64,000 bases of DNA from Adlercreutzia sp. ZJ141 (GTDB lineage: Bacteria; Actinomycetota; Coriobacteriia; Coriobacteriales; Eggerthellaceae), in assembly GCF_011038965.1 (NCBI RefSeq), contig NZ_JAAKEB010000001.1:62001-126000 (forward strand). The letters are read 5' to 3'. The stretch's first letter is position 1. The number at the start of each line of letters is the position of its first letter. Shown piece by piece: positions 1,806 through 37,544 of this stretch. Made by a program: the position numbers and the translations under genes. Under the pieces are notes generated by a model. It saw only the letters and a program-made list of their open reading frames with translations. It had not been told where the DNA came from and made no database searches.

Positions 1806-3257
1806 ATGGGTAACAGTTATACATCTTTGCAGGTAGATGAAGCGTGTGGTATGACAGCGGGGTCGCATGGTGTGTGCGAGGGCGCTGATGGTGCCTCAAC
1901 TGTCGTAGTGAACAACAACGCTGCGGCGGTTGAGAGCGCGCGCACTGAAGTGGTTACGCTTGAGCGCATGGGGTATGGCCCTGAAGCTGTGGGGCGCTTG
2001 GCCGATGGCAAGACGGTGTTTGTCGCAGGTGGTGCTCCCGGCGACGTTGCTGTCGTGGAAGTGACGGAAGAAAAGCGTTCGTACGCACGCGGACGCATGG
2101 TGGAACCCAAGCAAGCCTCGCCCGACCGCGTGAGCGGCTTCTGTGTATACGCCAATGCGTGCGGAGGATGCCCGTGGCAACACCTATCCTACGATACTCA
2201 ACTTGTGTCGAAGCGCTACAACGTGGTGTCAGCTCTGGCGCGTACAGGTGGGTTTGATAAGGCAGAAGCCGAGCGACTGGTGGCACCGTGTTTGCCCAGC
2301 AAGCGGCAGGTTGGCTACCGCAACAAGCTCGAACTTGCCGTGGGAACCGCGAAAAACGGTGCCTTCGCACTCGGTTTCAGCGCGCATGGTACGCATGACG
2401 TGTTCACGCCCGATTCTTGCCCAATAGCGGTGCGTCACATCCAGCGCGCGCCGAAGGCTTTGCAAGGGGCGCTTCGCTTCTTGCAGGGAAACCGTGACCT
2501 AGGCATCTTTCGTGTGGGGGTGCGCGGCAGCGTGCGTACCAACGAGGTTGAGGTGGCGTTGTGGACTCGTCCAGGCGTTTTCCCGCGTGCGCAGGCGGCT
2601 AAGGTGCTGGGCAGCGCGGTGCGTGCGACGAGCGTAGTGCGCGTACTGGCTGATCCAGGCCGTGCTCGCAAGGTGAAGGGTGTCGAGGTGCTTGCAGGTA
2701 AGGGCCACTGGGTTGAGGTGATGAAAGACACGCGCTTCTTCACGAGCGCCCCGTCGTTTTTTCAGGTAAACACTGCGCAAGCCGAGCGGCTGGTCGATTG
2801 TGTACTCGAGGGTTTAGGTGGCGTGAAAGGTCTTTTGGTAGCCGATTTGTACGCGGGCGGGGGCACATTTTCGGTACCGCTGGCGCGCGCTGGGGCTGAC
2901 GTCATAGCTGTGGAATCTGCCGGGTCGTCAGTGCGCGATCTGCGACATAACGCCGAGGTGAACGATGCCGACATCGATGTCATTGGTGGCGATGCAGCCC
3001 GCGAGTTGCCGCAACTCGGCGGACTCGACGCATTGGTGGTCGATCCGCCGCGTGCGGGTTTGGCTGACGGTGTGGTGGAAAGCATCGCTTTGTCGCGTCC
3101 TTCGCGTGTGGCGTACGTGAGCTGCGACGTTGCCACCTGGGCGCGCGATGTAGCGCGCTTCGAGCGAGCGGGCTACCGGCTTGTGAGCGTACAACCCGTC
3201 GACCTGTTCCCGCAAACCTACCATGTGGAAACGGTAAGCATCTTTCATCGGCTGTAA
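1806..3257 (+). CDS. Class I SAM-dependent RNA m5U methyltransferase (TrmA/RumA/RlmD family)
   Basis: A 483-residue protein with the usual three parts. A TRAM domain (about residues 46-100) is followed by an iron-sulfur cysteine set (Cx5CxxC near 112-121 and a later DSCPIAV), then a C-terminal methyltransferase with AGGGTFS (SAM loop), VVDPPRAGL and the catalytic-cysteine motif YVSCDVATWARD, ending in a DLFPQTYHVETV signature. Family members add C5-methyl groups to specific uridines of 23S rRNA or tRNA. Because TrmFO (42339) is also present and makes tRNA m5U54, an rRNA target is more likely; this is inference. The first 40 residues are poorly conserved, so the start is uncertain. Confidence 0.9.
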   Translation: MGNSYTSLQVDEACGMTAGSHGVCEGADGASTVVVNNNAAAVESARTEVVTLERMGYGPEAVGRLADGKTVFVAGGAPGDVAVVEVTEEKRSYARGRMVEPKQASPDRVSGFCVYANACGGCPWQHLSYDTQLVSKRYNVVSALARTGGFDKAEAERLVAPCLPSKRQVGYRNKLELAVGTAKNGAFALGFSAHGTHDVFTPDSCPIAVRHIQRAPKALQGALRFLQGNRDLGIFRVGVRGSVRTNEVEVALWTRPGVFPRAQAAKVLGSAVRATSVVRVLADPGRARKVKGVEVLAGKGHWVEVMKDTRFFTSAPSFFQVNTAQAERLVDCVLEGLGGVKGLLVADLYAGGGTFSVPLARAGADVIAVESAGSSVRDLRHNAEVNDADIDVIGGDAARELPQLGGLDALVVDPPRAGLADGVVESIALSRPSRVAYVSCDVATWARDVARFERAGYRLVSVQPVDLFPQTYHVETVSIFHRL

Positions 3258-3264
3258 AGATAAG

Positions 3265-3286
3265 CGTGTCGGTGTGTGCCGACACG
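3265..3286 (+). terminator. Stem-loop after the RNA methyltransferase gene
   Basis: CGTGTCGG (3265-3272) pairs with CCGACACG (3279-3286) around a 6-base loop, 8 bases after the stop codon. No T-tract follows, so it may be a Rho-independent terminator of poor quality or an mRNA-stabilising hairpin. Confidence 0.35.
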
Positions 3287-3519
3287 TTGACACGCTGATA
3301 CATTGGCGCGTTTGCGAACATTGCACGTTTTTTCAAGCAGTGGCCTTGCAACCTGCTAGAATGCTCGAATGTATGCGATGATTTAAACTTGCGAACTCGG
3401 TTCGAAGCTTGTGTCAAACGGCGGGTTTTGAGCTGCGTGGTGGGGGAGGGTGCCCCATGGGGTTCCCGATCTGGGCACTTCGCATTCGCAAGCGATCTGA
3501 GAAGATAAGGAGCAGGGAA

Positions 3520-4053
3520 ATGGCGCTGTACACTCCCGAATACCAGCCCACAGGCGATGAAGTCGCCGTCATCAAGACGTCGAAGGGCGACATCCGTGTG
3601 CAGCTGGCTGGCAAGGACGCTCCCATCCATGTGGGCAACTTCGTCGAGCTGGCACAGAAGGGCTTCTACGATAACTTGAAGTTTCACCGCTACGTGCCGA
3701 ACTTCGTCATTCAGGGTGGCTGCCCTAACACACGCGATCTAACACCTGAAGAAGTGGTTCGCAATGCAGGCAACCCGTTTGCCGGTTTGGGTACGGGTGG
3801 TCCGGGCTACACCATCAAGCAGGAGTACACCACAAACCCCAACAACAGACACGAGGACGGCGCGCTTGCCATGGCGCGCTCCCAGCAGCCCGACTCTGCA
3901 GGGTCACAGTTCTACCTGTGTTTGGGTACCCAGCATTTCCTCGACCCGAACTATACGGTGTTCGGTCAGACCATCGAAGGTATGGACGTGATCTCCCAGC
4001 TGCGCGTGGGCGACGTCATCGAGGGTATAGAGATCGAGAACGCCGCCTGCTAG
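3520..4053 (+). CDS. Cyclophilin-type peptidyl-prolyl cis-trans isomerase
   Basis: A 177-residue single-domain cyclophilin. It has the family's FHRYVPNFVIQGG core (substrate-binding Arg/Phe/Gln), SAGSQFYLCLG and HFLDPNYTVFGQ. It catalyses proline isomerisation during protein folding. No signal peptide or lipobox is visible, so it is predicted cytoplasmic. An ATG at 3520 is chosen because AAGGAGCAGG lies just upstream; the frame is open back to 3409, but that part is not cyclophilin-like. The next gene (TPR protein) follows 45 bases downstream and may be cotranscribed. Confidence 0.95.
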   Translation: MALYTPEYQPTGDEVAVIKTSKGDIRVQLAGKDAPIHVGNFVELAQKGFYDNLKFHRYVPNFVIQGGCPNTRDLTPEEVVRNAGNPFAGLGTGGPGYTIKQEYTTNPNNRHEDGALAMARSQQPDSAGSQFYLCLGTQHFLDPNYTVFGQTIEGMDVISQLRVGDVIEGIEIENAAC

Positions 4054-4098
4054 TTCGCTTCAGACGCGCTCAACAAAAACACGGAATTAAGGAAGCAG

Positions 4099-5469
4099 AT
4101 GAACAACGAGCTCTTTCAGCAAGCGCGCACGGCGTATTCCCAAGGTGATTTCGAAGGTGCGCTTGCCAGCTTCACCAGATGCCTTCAGGAATCTCCCGCG
4201 GGTTTTGGCCCGGGAGAGTTGGGGCTTTTGTACCATCGTATTGGGAATTGCCTGATCAAGCTGAAAAACCCTAACGAGGCTATCCAGGCCTACACCCAGG
4301 CTTCTGCCGACGCTGCCTACGACGCGTGTGGTGCAGTTAACTACAACATGGGTATGGCGTATGCGTCGCTGCGCGACTACGAAGATGCGGTGAAGCATTT
4401 CGAGATAGCCGTGTCCGACGCGAACTACGAAACACCCTACAAGGCGTATTCGGGCATGGGTAGCGCGCTTTTGAAGCTGGGCAAGTCGGCTGAGGCCGGC
4501 GTGGCCTTCCGAGAAGCTGCGCTGGACGAGGCGAATCCTGATCCTACCAAGGCGCTGTTGAACCTAGGCGTGTGTTTCATGGCGCTCGGTCGACCTGCCG
4601 ATGCGGTCGCGTCGTACGAAAGCGCTATGCAGTTTTCCATGAGTGCCGCTACTCGCAACAAGCTCTATGCAAACCTGGGGCAGGCGTATGCGGCCGATGG
4701 ACAGATGCAAAAGGCCGTTGATGCCTTCGAACAGTCACTGGCAGACAAGACTTACTACTTAAGTGATTCGGCGAGTGTGGACTACCAGCGCGCCATCGCC
4801 TCCGTTGCACAGGGCACCTCCGAGGTCACACGCGTTATCGAACCGGTGGCCGACATGTCTGGACTCGACGTTTCCGCTGATGGCGGAGCGATGTATGTCG
4901 AAGAGGACCCGTATGGCGCCCAAGTGGGCGATCCGTATTACTACGCCGATCCGTATGGTCAGCAGCGTGTACAGTACGACATGTACGGCGCGGCACCTGG
5001 GGCGGAGGACCGCTTCTTCAACGCCAGCGACGAAGAGCTCGAGCAGTGGTCGCGTGGCTTAGCGAAGCAAGAGCGTAAGCGCCGAAATGTGGGCCTGAAA
5101 ATCCTTATTGTGCTTATTGTGCTCGTGTTAGCAGCGTTTGGCGGGGCGGTGTTCCTGTACACGCAGGGTTATGGCTACCCCATGCAAGATGACGTGGCAG
5201 CGCAGCTATTCTCTGCGGAAGGTGCCGATCAGGAGGCGCTGTTCGCAGAGGAACTATCTGACGAAAGTGTTGCTAGTATGCAGGAACTCATTGAGCCCTG
5301 CACGTTTGTAGGTGTTGACGGCATGGACCGCTCCATGAGCGATTCGACGGTGTATGTGACCGCGAAAACCGCCGAGGGCGGTGACATGCAGTACAAGATT
5401 TCGCTCGTGCGTTCGGGTATCGGATGGAAGGTGTCGAACGTCGAGTTGTATTTCGCGAGCCAGAACTAA
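4099..5469 (+). CDS. TPR-repeat protein with a C-terminal membrane anchor
   Basis: 456 residues. Residues 1 to about 225 form five or six tetratricopeptide-like repeats (recurring AxxxxGxxxxAxxxF patterns, for instance NMGMAYASLRDYEDAVKHF). Next comes a Tyr/Pro/Asp-rich linker (about 270-310, with repeated DPYG and PYYYADPYG), a basic stretch (KQERKRR), one membrane helix (about 332-354) and a 100-residue extracytoplasmic tail. The layout suggests a cytoplasmic scaffold tethered to the membrane, with a small outer domain. No specific function can be assigned. AAGGAAG precedes the ATG. It lies between the cyclophilin gene and the hydrogenase operon. Confidence 0.85.
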   Translation: MNNELFQQARTAYSQGDFEGALASFTRCLQESPAGFGPGELGLLYHRIGNCLIKLKNPNEAIQAYTQASADAAYDACGAVNYNMGMAYASLRDYEDAVKHFEIAVSDANYETPYKAYSGMGSALLKLGKSAEAGVAFREAALDEANPDPTKALLNLGVCFMALGRPADAVASYESAMQFSMSAATRNKLYANLGQAYAADGQMQKAVDAFEQSLADKTYYLSDSASVDYQRAIASVAQGTSEVTRVIEPVADMSGLDVSADGGAMYVEEDPYGAQVGDPYYYADPYGQQRVQYDMYGAAPGAEDRFFNASDEELEQWSRGLAKQERKRRNVGLKILIVLIVLVLAAFGGAVFLYTQGYGYPMQDDVAAQLFSAEGADQEALFAEELSDESVASMQELIEPCTFVGVDGMDRSMSDSTVYVTAKTAEGGDMQYKISLVRSGIGWKVSNVELYFASQN

Positions 5470-31133: not shown

Positions 31134-31979
31134 GTGACAAACGATCTCAGCCAAGGGGTTCCTGCGCGCCATGCGCGGCGCAGCGGGGGTGCTCATGCTG
31201 CGTCGGCTCGGCAGGTGACCTCTCAGCTTTCGGCATCGCTTCCGGTGCTCGAGGTCGATGACGTGCCGCAACAGATGGGCAAACCGGTCATCACCTTCGA
31301 TCATGTGACGAAAATCTATCCTGCCCAGCCGAACAATCCGGCGCTTGACGATATCTCCCTCCAAATATATGCGGGCGAGTTTGTCTTTTTGGTCGGCCAT
31401 TCTGGTTCGGGTAAATCGACATTTATTCGTATGCTCACGCGCGAGATTAAGCCGACACAAGGTCATATCTACGTCGCCGACGAGGATTTGGGTTCCATGC
31501 GTAACTGGCGCGTGCCCTACCTGCGCCGCAATATTGGCTGCGTGTTCCAAGACTTCAAACTGCTGCCGAACAAGACGGTGTTTGAGAATGTGGCGTTTGC
31601 GCTTGAGGTAATTGGCAAGAATCGCCACGTCATCAAGACGCAGGTACCCGAGGTGCTACGCCTGGTAGGCTTGCAGGATAAGCTGGGGAAACTACCCGAT
31701 CAGCTTTCCGGCGGCGAGCAGCAGCGTGTGTCTATTGCACGTGCCATCGTGAATCGCCCCCCGATGCTCATCTGTGACGAGCCGACGGGTAACCTCGATC
31801 CGCAAACGTCTCGCGGTATTATGGACCTGCTCGAGCGAATCAACCGCACGGGTACAACGGTATTGGTGGCAACGCATGACCGCGAAATGGTGGACAACAT
31901 GCGTCGCCGCGTTATCGCCCTCGACCGCGGTCATCTGACGCGCGACCAAGACAGGGGGGTGTACGGTTTCGATGCGTAG
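31134..31979 (+). CDS. ftsE: Cell division ATP-binding protein FtsE
   Basis: 281 residues. The ABC ATPase core has GHSGSGKST (Walker A), [15 protein letters not shown] (signature) and [12 protein letters not shown] (Walker B). FtsE with FtsX forms a membrane complex that switches on peptidoglycan hydrolases at the septum. The GTG at 31134 with a GGAG site gives a Ser/Ala-rich N-terminal extension of about 45 residues ahead of the usual start (near [10 protein letters not shown]). An ATG at 31275 lacks a ribosome site. It overlaps ftsX by 8 bases. Confidence 0.94.
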
Positions 31980-32886
31980 TCTTATCTATTTCCTGCGTGA
32001 GTCGGTTAAGGGGTTCTCTCGCAACCTTTCCACGGCGCTCGGTTCGATCGTTACTATTTTCCTTTCGCTGCTCATCATTGGCATCTTTTTGATGGGTGGT
32101 ATTGTCATTGAGAACATCGTGAGCTCGGTGGAAAGTGAGGTGTCCATCACTGCCTACATCGCCGACGAGGCATCGGAGGCCGACATCTCGAAGACCAAGA
32201 GCTTCATCGAAGGGCTTGAGGGCGTGGCGTCGGTTGGCTTTACCACCAAGGATCAGGCGCTGGAGAACTTCCGTAACTCGATGACTTCAAACCCCGAGAT
32301 CATCGATCAGCTTGATGGTGAAAACCCGCTTCCCGCCTCCATTGATGTGGAATTGTCCGACCCGCAGTTGGTCGAGCAAGTGGCGGCTTCCATTGAGAGT
32401 AATTCCACCTTTGCTTCGATCTGTGACAACCCAAGCGATCCATCTGAATCGCTGAAGTACGGTCAGAAAACCGTTGAGAAGCTGTTCTCGTTGACGAGCT
32501 ACATTCGCTACATCGGCATTGCGCTCGTGGCGCTACTCATCTTCATTGCCATGGTGTTCATTAACAACACCATCAGACTCGCCATCTTGGCGCGTCGCAA
32601 GGAGATTGCCATCATGCGATTGGTGGGTGCTTCGAATGGCTTCATTCGCGGGCCCTTCCTGATGGAAGGTGCGTTGCATGCGCTTATTGGATCGCTGCTT
32701 TCAGTTGGCGCACTCGAGCTTTTGCGCCGCTTCGCGCTTCCGCAGCTGCAAAATGCGCTTACCTGGTTGCCTATCGACATTGGTGGCAGCATCATGGCGA
32801 TGATCTATGTGGCTCTTATCGTTGCTGGCTTGGTCATTGGTTTGATCGGCTCTGCGTTTGCCATGGGCCGCTACCTGAAGGTCTAG
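31972..32886 (+). CDS. ftsX: Cell division membrane protein FtsX
   Basis: 304 residues with four membrane helices. One helix lies near residues 22-45. An extracytoplasmic domain follows to about residue 175. Three C-terminal helices contain the FtsX/LolE-type [18 protein letters not shown] segment. It transmits FtsE ATPase action to a periplasmic/extracellular hydrolase partner. The usual M23-type hydrolase or EnvC partner gene is not adjacent; an S41 homologue is. Confidence 0.95.
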
Positions 32887-32902: not shown

Positions 32903-34183
32903 ATGGGCGAGGTAAAGAACAGTAAACATGCGGCGGCGTCCGAGCGTCATGCTCGGACCCGCCTTGTTCGTTTGGTGAAGGTGATGCTCTTCGCCTTACT
33001 TTTGTGCACGGTGTTCGTGATGGGGTTTGTCGTGCGCGGTCAGAGTAACCTGCTCGAATCGCTCGGTTTCCCTCGTTACGCTGCCGATGTGGATCGCAAT
33101 CCGGGTGCCACCGTGTCGGGCGATACGTACGATTCCATTGGTGCGCGCATGGAAGAAGTTGAGGGCATAACGAAGAACTATAGCCTCAATACGTACGATT
33201 TGGATGTTGCTACGCATAAGGTTTTAGACGCGTTTTCTGAAGCGACGGCCGACCCATACTTTGACTACTTCGACGCCGATCGCTACGCGGTACTTTTGCA
33301 GGAAGCATCTGGTATCACTTCGGGTATTGGCGTTCTGTTCTCCGAAAAGGATGGGCGCGCTTATGCAGCCGATGTGTTCGAAGAGTCGGCAGCGCAAGCT
33401 GCCGGCGTGCAGCAGGGCGACACCGTGATTGCTATCGATGGTGAGCGTGATCATGATTGGACGATGACAGAGGTTACCTCGCGCTTGCTTCAAGCGGAAG
33501 GTGATCCGGTGATTATCACCTGGCGGCGCGCCTCGGCTGCTGAAGGCGATGACGATATATCCTACACCACAACACTTGACTGTTCGAGCTATTCGATTAA
33601 GAATGTCGAAACGCGCCTGGAGGGCACAACGGGCGTTATTACGCTGCGCCAGTTAAGCCAAAACTCGACCGAGTTGGTGGCAAACGCGGTGGCTGATTTA
33701 AGAATACAGGGGGCAACTTCGTTCGTTCTCGATTTGCGCGACAATCCTGGCGGTTTTCTCACGCAGGCGGTAAACATCGCGAGCCTGTTTGTGGAAAGCG
33801 GCACAATCGTGAACATATCCACGCGTGAGTCCGATGAGACCGCGCGTACAGCAACAGGCGACGCTATTACCGATGCGCCGCTGGTGGTGCTGGTGAATGG
33901 ACACACGGGAGCTGCGGCTGAAGTGCTCGCGGCGGCGTTGCAAGACAACGAGCGTGCCATACTGGTGGGTGAAAAGACCCTGGGAAAAGGATCAGTGCAG
34001 GTGATGCGCGCCTTGAGCTTCGGCGGTGCTTTGCGCTACACCGCGGCGTATTATCAGACCCCGCTTGGGCATGACATCGATGGGGTGGGAATCGCCCCCA
34101 CTATTACTGTCTCACCGTCGGGAGAAGATGACAACCAGATGCAGTTGGCGCTGGAAACGGCGCTGTCAGTTTCGGCGGATTAG
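32903..34183 (+). CDS. S41-family (C-terminal processing) protease homologue lacking the catalytic serine
   Basis: 426 residues: an N-terminal membrane helix (about 25-48), a PDZ domain (about 130-220, with AAQAAGVQQGDTVIAIDG), and a tail-specific protease domain (LDLRDNPGGFLTQAVN, then GHTGAAAEVLAAALQDN and VGEKTLGKGSVQ). In the family the serine lies exactly 25 residues before the catalytic lysine, in the pattern SAxE. Here that position is Ala337 (GCT at 33911-33913) while Lys362 is kept. So it is predicted to be a proteolytically dead, membrane-anchored PDZ protein, perhaps a scaffold for FtsEX. It lies 16 bases after ftsX. No other reading of the frame restores a serine. Confidence 0.85.
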   Translation: MGEVKNSKHAAASERHARTRLVRLVKVMLFALLLCTVFVMGFVVRGQSNLLESLGFPRYAADVDRNPGATVSGDTYDSIGARMEEVEGITKNYSLNTYDLDVATHKVLDAFSEATADPYFDYFDADRYAVLLQEASGITSGIGVLFSEKDGRAYAADVFEESAAQAAGVQQGDTVIAIDGERDHDWTMTEVTSRLLQAEGDPVIITWRRASAAEGDDDISYTTTLDCSSYSIKNVETRLEGTTGVITLRQLSQNSTELVANAVADLRIQGATSFVLDLRDNPGGFLTQAVNIASLFVESGTIVNISTRESDETARTATGDAITDAPLVVLVNGHTGAAAEVLAAALQDNERAILVGEKTLGKGSVQVMRALSFGGALRYTAAYYQTPLGHDIDGVGIAPTITVSPSGEDDNQMQLALETALSVSAD

Positions 34184-34185
34184 CT

Positions 34186-36171
34186 ATGCCGCGTCGGCGC
34201 TCGCATGCTCGTCGTACGCCCCGAAGCAATCCACGGGGTATCCTTGCCGTGCGCAAGGATGGTTATGGTTTCGTTAAAACCCCTGAGGGTGACTATTTCG
34301 TTGCGAACTCAAAGATGAACGGCGCAGCTGACGGCGATTACGTTGAGGTTGCAGCACTGCCGCGCACGCGCTGCGCACGCGAAGAGGAGCGGAGTGCACC
34401 CCGAGATGCGCAAGGTTGTCCGGCCGCGCGCGTAGTTCGTGTTATCGATCGGGCGCATGATGTAGTGGTCGGACGCTACGAAGTGGCTGATCCTTTCGGC
34501 GTGGTTGTGCCTGCTGATCGGCGCATTCCCTACGACATCTTCACTATGCGACGCGATCACCCTGACATCCAAGACGGCGCGATCGTCAAAGTGCGCATCA
34601 CTGAGTTTCCCACGCGCCGCAGCGCAGCTGTAGGCATTGTTGAGGAAGTACTGAGCAATGCCAATGACAATTCCGTTCCTGTCGAGCTTATTGTGGCAGC
34701 TCACAAGCTTGAAACGACGTTTTCATCCGCATCGCTTGAGCAGGCTAGAAAATCATGTGTAGATGCTGACGGCGCACTCGCGGCTGGATACCGTGATCTG
34801 CGTGATCGCTTCGTGGTCACCATCGACCCAGCCGATGCACGCGATTATGATGACGCGCTGTCGCTTGAGCGTCTCGAGTCGGGCGCATGGCGTGTGGGGG
34901 TTCACATTGCCGATGTGTCACACTACGTACCATGGGGTTCGCACGTCGATTTGGATGCTCGCCGTCGTGCGACGAGTGTGTATTTGGTCGATCGTGTGAT
35001 CCCTATGCTGCCTGAAGCACTCTCGAACGGAACGTGCTCGCTTTCCCCTGGTGAAGACCGCCGTGCTATGACGGTTGACGTGGTGCTCGACGCAGAGGCG
35101 CGCGTACTGTCGTTTGAGGCGTACCCGTCACTTATTCGTTCGCGTCGACGTCTGACATATGACGAGGTGCTCGACATTCTGAACGGCGTGTATGTGCCGG
35201 ATGACGACTCATGTATGCTTGAGCTGTTACGCGGTTTGTCGCGCGTGGCGAAGCTGCGTGCACGCGCTCGCATGCGCGCCGGGGGTGTGGATTTCGATAC
35301 GGTTGAGGCAAAGGTGCGTCTCGATGGTGAAGGCTCGCCCAATGAAATCGTGCTTCGTCAGCGAAATGACGCTACCGAATTGGTTGAAGAGGCGATGATT
35401 CTCGCGAACGAAACGGTGGCGCGCTATTTGCGGGATGCGGGCTTTCCCTGTATGTACCGTGTACATGAAAAGCCCTCACCCGATAGTCTCAAGGCGCTCT
35501 TGCCAGTACTTACTGAGTTTCCTTGGTTTGAGAAGATCAACCGCCGTTTGTTTGTTGCGGGCAATCCCTTCGAGGTGCAGCGCGTGCTCGCACTTGCTGA
35601 AGGGTGGCTTGAGGGTCGGTTGACCTCGTCGCTCGTGCTTAGGGCGATGAAGCGTGCTGACTATCGCATTGTGTGCGAGGGGCACTACGGGTTGGCGAGT
35701 GAAGCTTACGCTCATTTCACTTCGCCGATACGCCGCTATCCTGATTTGGTGGTGCATCGGATGTTGAAGGCCCGGTTACTTGGACGTCTCGAGTGCTTCG
35801 ACCAGGAGGTGTCGGCTATGCCCTGGCTGGCGGAGTATTCCTCGAAGATGGAGCGCGAGGCCGATGCGGCTGCGCGTGAGTCGCAAGAAGTGAAGATGAT
35901 CGAGTATCTAACCCGCTTTATCGGCCAAGAGTTTTCTGGTGTGGTGTCGGGTGTTGCAACGTATGGGGTGTTCGTGCGACTCGACAACACGGCTGAGGGG
36001 TTACTGCCCGTATCCGAGCTAGGAAACGAGTGTTTTGCGCTCGATGCGACACGTTACCGGCTGGTGGGGCAGGAAAGCGGTGTGGTCTACAGACTTGGTC
36101 AGTGCGTGCGTGTTGTGCTGACGGCAGCAGACGCCGCTGCGCGTCAGCTCGACTTCCGTCTGACGCGATGA
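34186..36171 (+). CDS. rnr: Ribonuclease R / VacB-type 3'-5' exoribonuclease
   Basis: 661 residues: an N-terminal cold-shock domain (GILAVRKDGYGFVKTPEGDYFV), an RNB catalytic domain (TIDPADARDYDDALSLE, four acidic residues for magnesium; HIADVSHYV; HFTSPIRRYPDLVVHR near residue 515), and a C-terminal S1 domain (SGVATYGVFVRLDN). It degrades structured RNA processively. It starts 3 bases after the S41 homologue, so it may be part of the same transcript. Its usual companion smpB is not beside it. Confidence 0.95.
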   Translation: MPRRRSHARRTPRSNPRGILAVRKDGYGFVKTPEGDYFVANSKMNGAADGDYVEVAALPRTRCAREEERSAPRDAQGCPAARVVRVIDRAHDVVVGRYEVADPFGVVVPADRRIPYDIFTMRRDHPDIQDGAIVKVRITEFPTRRSAAVGIVEEVLSNANDNSVPVELIVAAHKLETTFSSASLEQARKSCVDADGALAAGYRDLRDRFVVTIDPADARDYDDALSLERLESGAWRVGVHIADVSHYVPWGSHVDLDARRRATSVYLVDRVIPMLPEALSNGTCSLSPGEDRRAMTVDVVLDAEARVLSFEAYPSLIRSRRRLTYDEVLDILNGVYVPDDDSCMLELLRGLSRVAKLRARARMRAGGVDFDTVEAKVRLDGEGSPNEIVLRQRNDATELVEEAMILANETVARYLRDAGFPCMYRVHEKPSPDSLKALLPVLTEFPWFEKINRRLFVAGNPFEVQRVLALAEGWLEGRLTSSLVLRAMKRADYRIVCEGHYGLASEAYAHFTSPIRRYPDLVVHRMLKARLLGRLECFDQEVSAMPWLAEYSSKMEREADAAARESQEVKMIEYLTRFIGQEFSGVVSGVATYGVFVRLDNTAEGLLPVSELGNECFALDATRYRLVGQESGVVYRLGQCVRVVLTAADAAARQLDFRLTR

Positions 36172-36793: not shown

Positions 36794-37246
36794 CTACTCA
36801 GGGCAACTGATAATGTCATAGACAAGACCGTACTCTTCCTGAATGAAGTTGAAGAAATCAACTGGGCTGATAACCTGTGTATGGGCGTTTGAAAAGCCGC
36901 TTTCGTCACGTGTGAGCAGGAAATCAGCTTTTATCTTCTCGGCACAGATATCAATGAGACAGTCTCCAAAATCGTCCCATTTGCGACTACTCGCCAGATG
37001 GATGTCTGAGGCATCAATGGTGCAGATTTCAAGCCACGGGTAGCTTTCATTAAAAGCGTTCTGGATGAGTTCGCTGTTGTAGGTCTTTCGGAGAACATAA
37101 AACACATCGGTAAACGACTTGGCTGAAACCCAGAGTTCCGCATCGCCGAATTCCCTCATAACGAGAAGCTTTTGGGCGATATCATCATCAGGTGGTCGCT
37201 GTGTGTATAGATCGATGAGGACGTTGGTATCAAGCAAAACGCGCAT
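36794..37246 (-). CDS. PIN-domain toxin (putative RNase)
   Basis: 150 residues of the PIN fold. LLDTNVLIDLY holds the first acidic residue; DFGDCLIDICAEKIKADFLLTRD holds later acidic ones. PIN toxins are magnesium-dependent RNases that cut tRNA, rRNA or mRNA. The start is overlapped by the end of the antitoxin gene by 17 bases. AAGGG lies 7-9 bases before the ATG at 37246 but touches the alternative ATG at 37255. It ends near the YgjP-like gene, which runs the opposite way. Confidence 0.85.
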   Translation of the reverse strand: MRVLLDTNVLIDLYTQRPPDDDIAQKLLVMREFGDAELWVSAKSFTDVFYVLRKTYNSELIQNAFNESYPWLEICTIDASDIHLASSRKWDDFGDCLIDICAEKIKADFLLTRDESGFSNAHTQVISPVDFFNFIQEEYGLVYDIISCPE

Positions 37247-37544
37247 AACGCTCATCCCTTGCTTTGTTAAGCTGTTCGTTGAATGGTTGATTACTGACGG
37301 TGGGACCAACGTACATGGCCTCGAGTGATGCGCGTATTTTCTTGACTTGCTGGGGTGTGAGCGCTCGTTTTTGAGCCCCGGCGGCGCGGAGCGGCTCACG
37401 CGCTTTTGGGAGTTGTCGCTCTGCGAGGACAAACTCATAGGCGGCATTGATAAGCTGCGAAGGCGTAGATCCCAGCTCTTTTAAGGTGGCGTTCCCTCGT
37501 TCTTTCACGGCGACAGGAACACGTGCTGAAACGATAGCATCCAT
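37230..37544 (-). CDS. RelB/DinJ-like antitoxin
   Basis: 104 residues. The N-terminus (IVSARVPVAVKERGNATLKELG, then TPSQLINAAYEFVLAERQLP) matches the ribbon-helix-helix pattern of RelB/DinJ antitoxins. The C-terminal half (about residues 50-104) is longer than usual and would wrap around the toxin. It is upstream of the PIN toxin and overlaps it, which is the normal toxin-antitoxin order. A RelB/DinJ-type antitoxin with a PIN toxin is less common than with RelE/YafQ toxins. Confidence 0.75.
   Translation of the reverse strand: MDAIVSARVPVAVKERGNATLKELGSTPSQLINAAYEFVLAERQLPKAREPLRAAGAQKRALTPQQVKKIRASLEAMYVGPTVSNQPFNEQLNKARDERYARFA

Follow-up and report, generated by a model that had tools for sequence, protein, structure and literature searches.

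A family-wide, probably non-proteolytic S41 protease homologue encoded beside ftsEX in the Eggerthellaceae

What role could remain for a carboxyl-terminal protease (CTP) that has lost its catalytic serine but is still encoded next to the cell division complex FtsEX? The question is raised by a locus of Adlercreutzia sp. ZJ141, analysed here within a stretch of 64,000 nucleotides (the window). A first-pass annotation had described the S41 protease homologue encoded there as linked to FtsEX, and this is borne out by the ftsE and ftsX genes that lie directly upstream, overlapping each other by 8 bases, with the ftsE profile match above its cut-off (Table 1). The family to which this bacterium belongs is the Eggerthellaceae. 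Wherever a family locus includes sufficient flanking sequence the order is ftsE-ftsX-S41, and rnr comes next in nearly all of them. A canonical protease directly follows ftsX in other orders of the class too, so the pairing of ftsX with an S41 gene is ancestral. Elsewhere in the window, on the minus strand at 36794-37544, a RelB/DinJ-type antitoxin-like small ORF followed by a PIN-domain-like toxin ORF was recognized by eye only.

Table 1. Positions in the window of the S41 gene, its neighbours and the protein features discussed in the text
Feature	Position	Strand	Basis or remark
ftsE, ATPase of the FtsEX complex	31134..31979	+	TIGR02673, 287.9 bits against a cut-off of 264.85; exact start codon uncertain
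ftsX, permease-like subunit with extracellular domain	31972..32886	+	PF18075 (FtsX_ECD), PF02687, NF038347 (258.3 bits)
Probable S41/CtpA-like pseudoprotease, 426 aa	32903..34183	+	Profile matches, CtpA alignment, AlphaFold2 model, fold match
Membrane anchor, residues about 26-46	32978..33040	+	Judged from sequence and helix in model
Phe42 and Arg45 (within residues 42-45)	33026..33037	+	Near-invariant in family, variable in canonical orthologues
Arg82	33146..33148	+	Near-invariant in family, variable in canonical orthologues
PDZ domain, residues 141-209	33323..33529	+	PF13180 and PF17820 above cut-off; Gly141/Gly143 loop conserved
Gln250	33650..33652	+	Near-invariant in family, variable in canonical orthologues
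Gly283-Gly284, S41 NPGG motif	33749..33754	+	Unchanged in 112 family members and 30 canonical orthologues
Thr335, two residues before the missing nucleophile	33905..33907	+	Thr in 110/112, Ser in 2/112
Ala337 (GCT), catalytic serine position	33911..33913	+	Codon read, CtpA alignment, orthologues
Glu340, glutamate of the S-A-x-E motif	33920..33922	+	Invariant in family alignment
Leu360, position of CtpA Phe325	33980..33982	+	Family alignment
Lys362 (AAA), catalytic lysine position, retained	33986..33988	+	Codon read and alignment
Gln366, third active-site residue, retained	33998..34000	+	Family alignment
rnr, RNase R, conserved downstream neighbour	34186..36171	+	Profile match and synteny

The protein has a single N-terminal hydrophobic segment, which is followed by the PDZ domain and the S41 domain. 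The latter matches PF03572 strongly (E=1.3e-45; 155.4 bits against a cut-off of 24), whilst membership of the C-terminal processing peptidase subfamily (TIGR00225, prc) scores barely above the threshold, at 219.7 bits against 218.6. These are the sole domains detected with Pfam profiles, which gave no hydrolase or hydrolase-activator domain. Structure modelling, as the first-pass annotation had proposed, gave a confident S41 fold: the AlphaFold2 monomer model has a pLDDT of 89.7 and aligns (VIA-align) well with H. pylori CtpA (9ku0; Z 34.4, rmsd 3.3, 339 aligned) and with resting-state CtpB (4c2e; Z 33.3, rmsd 3.0). The match to active-state CtpB is poorer (4c2c; Z 27.2, rmsd 5.1), a monomer model being a weak guide to resting versus active state. 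A scan with the Pfam model found no second S41 protein in the Adlercreutzia sp. ZJ141 genome. The Eggerthellaceae genomes scanned in this way have one S41 gene each, and there is thus no active paralogue in them.

The central claim of the first-pass annotation was that alanine replaces the catalytic serine whilst the lysine 25 residues further on is kept, and alignment with characterized proteases and with orthologues upholds it. Ala337 aligns without a gap (HMMER) to Ser302 of P. aeruginosa CtpA, which is serine in wild-type 7RPQ and alanine in the S302A mutant chains 7RQH and 8SXE, and no gap intervenes before Lys362, leaving the register unshifted. The change made in laboratories to kill CtpA is here a natural one. 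In P. aeruginosa CtpA, S302A and K327A abolish activity and the effect of Q331A is minor (PMC11021448). Among the features of an active CTP, the protein has the lysine with a nearby glutamine and a PDZ domain with a conserved carboxylate-binding loop, and lacks the serine. CtpA H84, a proposed third catalytic residue, was also considered as an additional sign of inactivation and proved uninformative, since the canonical orthologues have Tyr there in 21 of 30 cases.

How widely the serine has been lost was determined by genome search, a related-locus search with the single protein having returned distant S41 genes only. Orthologue matches were obtained in 129 of 138 family genomes and 45 of 48 genera, a few of the 129 being fragments or weak PDZ-only hits. 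Loci L053-L056, with no S41 match to the query, were left out, and two sequences from genus g9 were kept apart from the 112 orthologues, representing 44 genera, in which individual sites were compared. Residue 337 is Ala in 77 of these, Gly in 24 and Ser in 11. The site is thus not fixed as alanine in the family but drifts between Ala, Gly and Ser; the serine-bearing members come from seven genera, four of which include Ala members too. A sequencing error or chance event at codon 337 is rejected by the same counts of Ala and Gly. Outside the Eggerthellaceae the position is serine in 38 of 40 orthologues, comprising 30 that belong to other orders within the class and all eight from the sister families f3, f5, f7, f8 and f9. 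The two exceptions (L051 and L052) belong to f2, in the same order; their nucleophile position is occupied by Gly and that of the catalytic lysine by Asp or Ser, and they are a more degenerate pseudoprotease lineage, possibly a separate one. The two g9 sequences (L042 and L089), whose branch in the family is a long one, carry Ala at the nucleophile position together with a change of Gln366 to Ala.

A second residue has been lost in the family too. Phe325 of CtpA lies on the substrate path just beyond the active site, and F325A reduces degradation almost as severely as S302A does (PMC11021448). The equivalent residue 360, Leu in the Adlercreutzia protein, is aromatic in none of the 112 family members (Leu 55, Met 46, others 11) and is Phe or Tyr in all 38 serine-bearing orthologues of other families; the very small Fisher p for this switch overstates how much of the evidence is independent, as members within groups are related, but the switch itself is complete. 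To judge from these sequences, loss of the aromatic is a second, independent sign of lost proteolysis, and the S41 protein is very probably a pseudoprotease throughout the family.

The ancestral protein would have been an FtsEX-linked, CtpA-type carboxyl-terminal protease, and its descendant a membrane-anchored pseudoprotease. Sequence comparison shows that the serine nucleophile and the exit-side aromatic ceased to be required by an early stage of the family's radiation, if not earlier, with the PDZ loop, NPGG glycines, lysine, glutamine, fold, anchor and operon position staying under purifying selection. Such a protein would still hold C-terminal peptides without cutting them, in the manner of the Ser-to-Ala mutants of CtpB and CtpA. 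Although it has no Ser hydroxyl, CtpB(S309A) can bind a C-terminal peptide and switch to the active conformation (PMC3808539), and in the CtpA S302A structure a copurified peptide is held in the tunnel (PMC11021448). In the preferred model the pseudoprotease would act at FtsEX as an adaptor or brake, binding either FtsX itself or a peptidoglycan hydrolase of the RipC-like NlpC/P60 or EnvC-like M23 type, for which it could serve as a docking subunit and which its ancestor would have degraded. In P. aeruginosa, degradation by CtpA keeps several peptidoglycan hydrolases under control (PMC6050968), and M. tuberculosis FtsEX activates RipC directly (PMC10694151). In the Adlercreutzia sp. ZJ141 genome there are two RipC-like NlpC/P60 proteins and one EnvC-like M23 protein, all three with coiled coils and none scoring above the curated threshold for precisely these names; these would be the obvious candidate clients. 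The RipC-like pair is adjacent on contig C57 (L194:1806-2972 and 3343-4497, minus strand), and the EnvC-like protein, which has a twin-arginine signal, is on contig C24 (L195:1788-3074, minus strand). The link to FtsEX, and with it the scaffold or regulator role suggested by the first-pass annotation, rests on synteny, and operon neighbours need not interact. The combined proposal of a pseudoprotease with a docking or brake role at FtsEX is, on balance, slightly favoured, whilst a specific adaptor role is a tentative suggestion, put at a little under even chances.

Binding could instead have been turned to a different ligand, such as a lipid, a muropeptide or some other molecule, in a function unrelated to FtsEX, the operon order being simply inherited. 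Dead S41 folds are already known: RBP3 (IRBP), which lacks the catalytic residues, is a carrier that transports retinoids and fatty acids (PMC11750400), and RBP3 chains are among the fold matches of the model, with Z about 16-20. However, the elements that bind peptides, namely the PDZ loop, NPGG, the lysine and the glutamine, are conserved, so that a change to another class of ligand is not indicated and seems unlikely.

It also seems unlikely, to a similar degree, that the protein is a relict with little function, on its way to deletion after proteolysis became dispensable, as in sister families. Deletion has occurred in some relatives. In the family member G011 (L197), ftsX (1654-2568) and rnr (2609-4669) are separated by a gap of about 40 bases with no S41 gene between them, and in five genomes of f4 and f10 ftsE, ftsX and rnr are close together with the S41 gene absent. 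A sixth f4/f10 genome, G193, has other genes between ftsX and rnr, and S41 matches in the listed genomes of f4 and f10 are confined to one genome with two distant matches. Another species in the genus of G011 (G157, L078) retains the S41 gene; in G014, a family member without it, rnr was not found in the stretch examined. The f2 and g9 lineages, as described above, are more degenerate. From these comparisons this part of the class appears to have become able to do without proteolysis by the S41 protein, and there appear to have been three outcomes: the dead protein was kept, degenerated further or was deleted. In the Eggerthellaceae, however, matches in 129 of 138 genomes are hardly those of a disappearing gene, and pairwise dN/dS, for pairs more than 84% identical, is mostly 0.05-0.2, with a maximum of 0.34. 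Family members have also preserved the reading frame, the anchor in the membrane, the glycines of the PDZ domain and the NPGG motif. Since Thr335, Glu340, Lys362, Gln366 and the PDZ loop are near-invariant and dN/dS is low, the gene is not decaying. Moreover, constraint on Phe42, Arg45, Arg82, Phe146 and Gln250 is stronger in the family than among canonical orthologues. The first two lie where the membrane segment ends on its outer side and, with Arg82 and Gln250, may form a partner interface. The first-pass annotation had seen intact PDZ, anchor and fold motifs and suggested a maintained pseudoprotease with no decay; family-wide loss of the serine and of the Phe325 equivalent, low dN/dS, the operon position and the S41 model all agree with this.

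A maintained pseudoprotease would not be the common state if proteolysis persisted in the lineages with Ser337 and the Ala and Gly residues were separate lineage losses, with no shared non-proteolytic function. The Ser337 members, in their seven genera, have the lysine and glutamine intact, and these 11 of 112 proteins could in principle be active. Yet all 11 also lack the aromatic at 360, and in a tree from which the motif columns were excluded they are nested among Ala and Gly members. The probability of Ser at the family root is 0.05-0.12 under an equal-rates model, which is rough given the long branches (a six-rate model was left out because its likelihood was worse than that with one rate), so some Ser members at least have probably regained serine. 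Parsimony assigns 17 changes within the family to site 337 against a median of 14 over 165 core sites, so that it behaves like an average small-residue site; the corresponding numbers are 1 for Lys362 and 0 for Gly283, Gly284, Glu340 and Gln366. Most other active-site residues are thus frozen whilst the nucleophile position varies at an average rate. Continued proteolysis in the serine-bearing lineages is accordingly regarded as very unlikely.

In the main rival reading, the protease might still be active if Thr335 served as a relocated nucleophile with Lys362 and Gln366, the nucleophile having migrated two residues, from the start of the helix, to give a Thr-Lys-Gln protease across a bacterial family. 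A hydroxyl is present at 335 in all 112 members, Lys362 is kept in 111 and Gln366 in 112, and residue 335, with its change from Ser to Thr, is among the six that switch cleanly from the canonical orthologues to the family. But Ser stands at this -2 position in 30 of 30 canonical orthologues, which have a normal nucleophile, so S41 proteins in general have a hydroxyl there. The register is not shifted by any indel, and the modelled helix begins at residue 337, where the usual register would put it. Every member has lost the aromatic needed for CtpA proteolysis, and the two f2 relatives have Thr335 even though their lysine is missing. Both the retained activity and the migration that it implies are therefore very unlikely.

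For the preferred reading, a pseudoprotease that binds without cutting, the hardest observation to explain is how strictly Lys362 has been retained. The near-perfect retention of Lys362 and Gln366 exceeds any obvious need of a pure scaffold and so argues against one. The lysine may be kept for contact with the bound peptide in a trap, or for packing with Gln366.

In this class a single operon joins FtsEX, which controls hydrolases by activation, with a gene for a CTP, a type of protein that in P. aeruginosa controls them by degradation. The Eggerthellaceae appear to have dropped the cutting and kept the rest, providing a natural experiment that separates binding from proteolysis, with matched controls in the canonical orthologues of other orders and in the families where the gene has been deleted from the same operon. 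This offers a testable route to asking whether the S41 protein is a structural partner of FtsEX in a family that includes human gut bacteria. For most members of the family the annotation 'S41 peptidase' probably misstates the mechanism.

No family-wide, FtsEX-linked bacterial S41 pseudoprotease is described in the literature searched, in which subscription papers were thinly covered, and the closest systems each share some of its features. The S41A proteases CtpB of B. subtilis and CtpA of P. aeruginosa have their domains in the same arrangement (N-terminal helices, PDZ, cap and core), the same fold (Z about 27-34), the same lysine and glutamine positions and the NPGG motif, and their laboratory mutants S309A and S302A carry the same residue change as Ala337. 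The S41 protein differs from both in lacking the catalytic serine and the aromatic at the Phe325 position, in being encoded directly after ftsX and in its predicted transmembrane anchor. The canonical S41 proteins of other Coriobacteriia orders share the place downstream of ftsX and are 32-40% identical; they have SAS*AS, Phe or Tyr at 360, the lysine and the glutamine in 30 of 30 cases, and it is the first two of these that the Eggerthellaceae have lost. In vertebrate RBP3, too, an S41 fold has been retained for binding after proteolysis was lost, as would be the case here. However, RBP3 has lost the protease catalytic residues, whereas the S41 protein has lost only the nucleophile and the exit aromatic and keeps its PDZ domain and its FtsEX neighbourhood. 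Finally, its proposed role as an extracytoplasmic partner of FtsEX would place it with PcsB, CwlO, RipC and the activator EnvC. The candidates of this type in the genome are encoded at other loci, and the S41 protein, unlike proteins of this type, has neither a hydrolase or LytM domain nor a long coiled coil.
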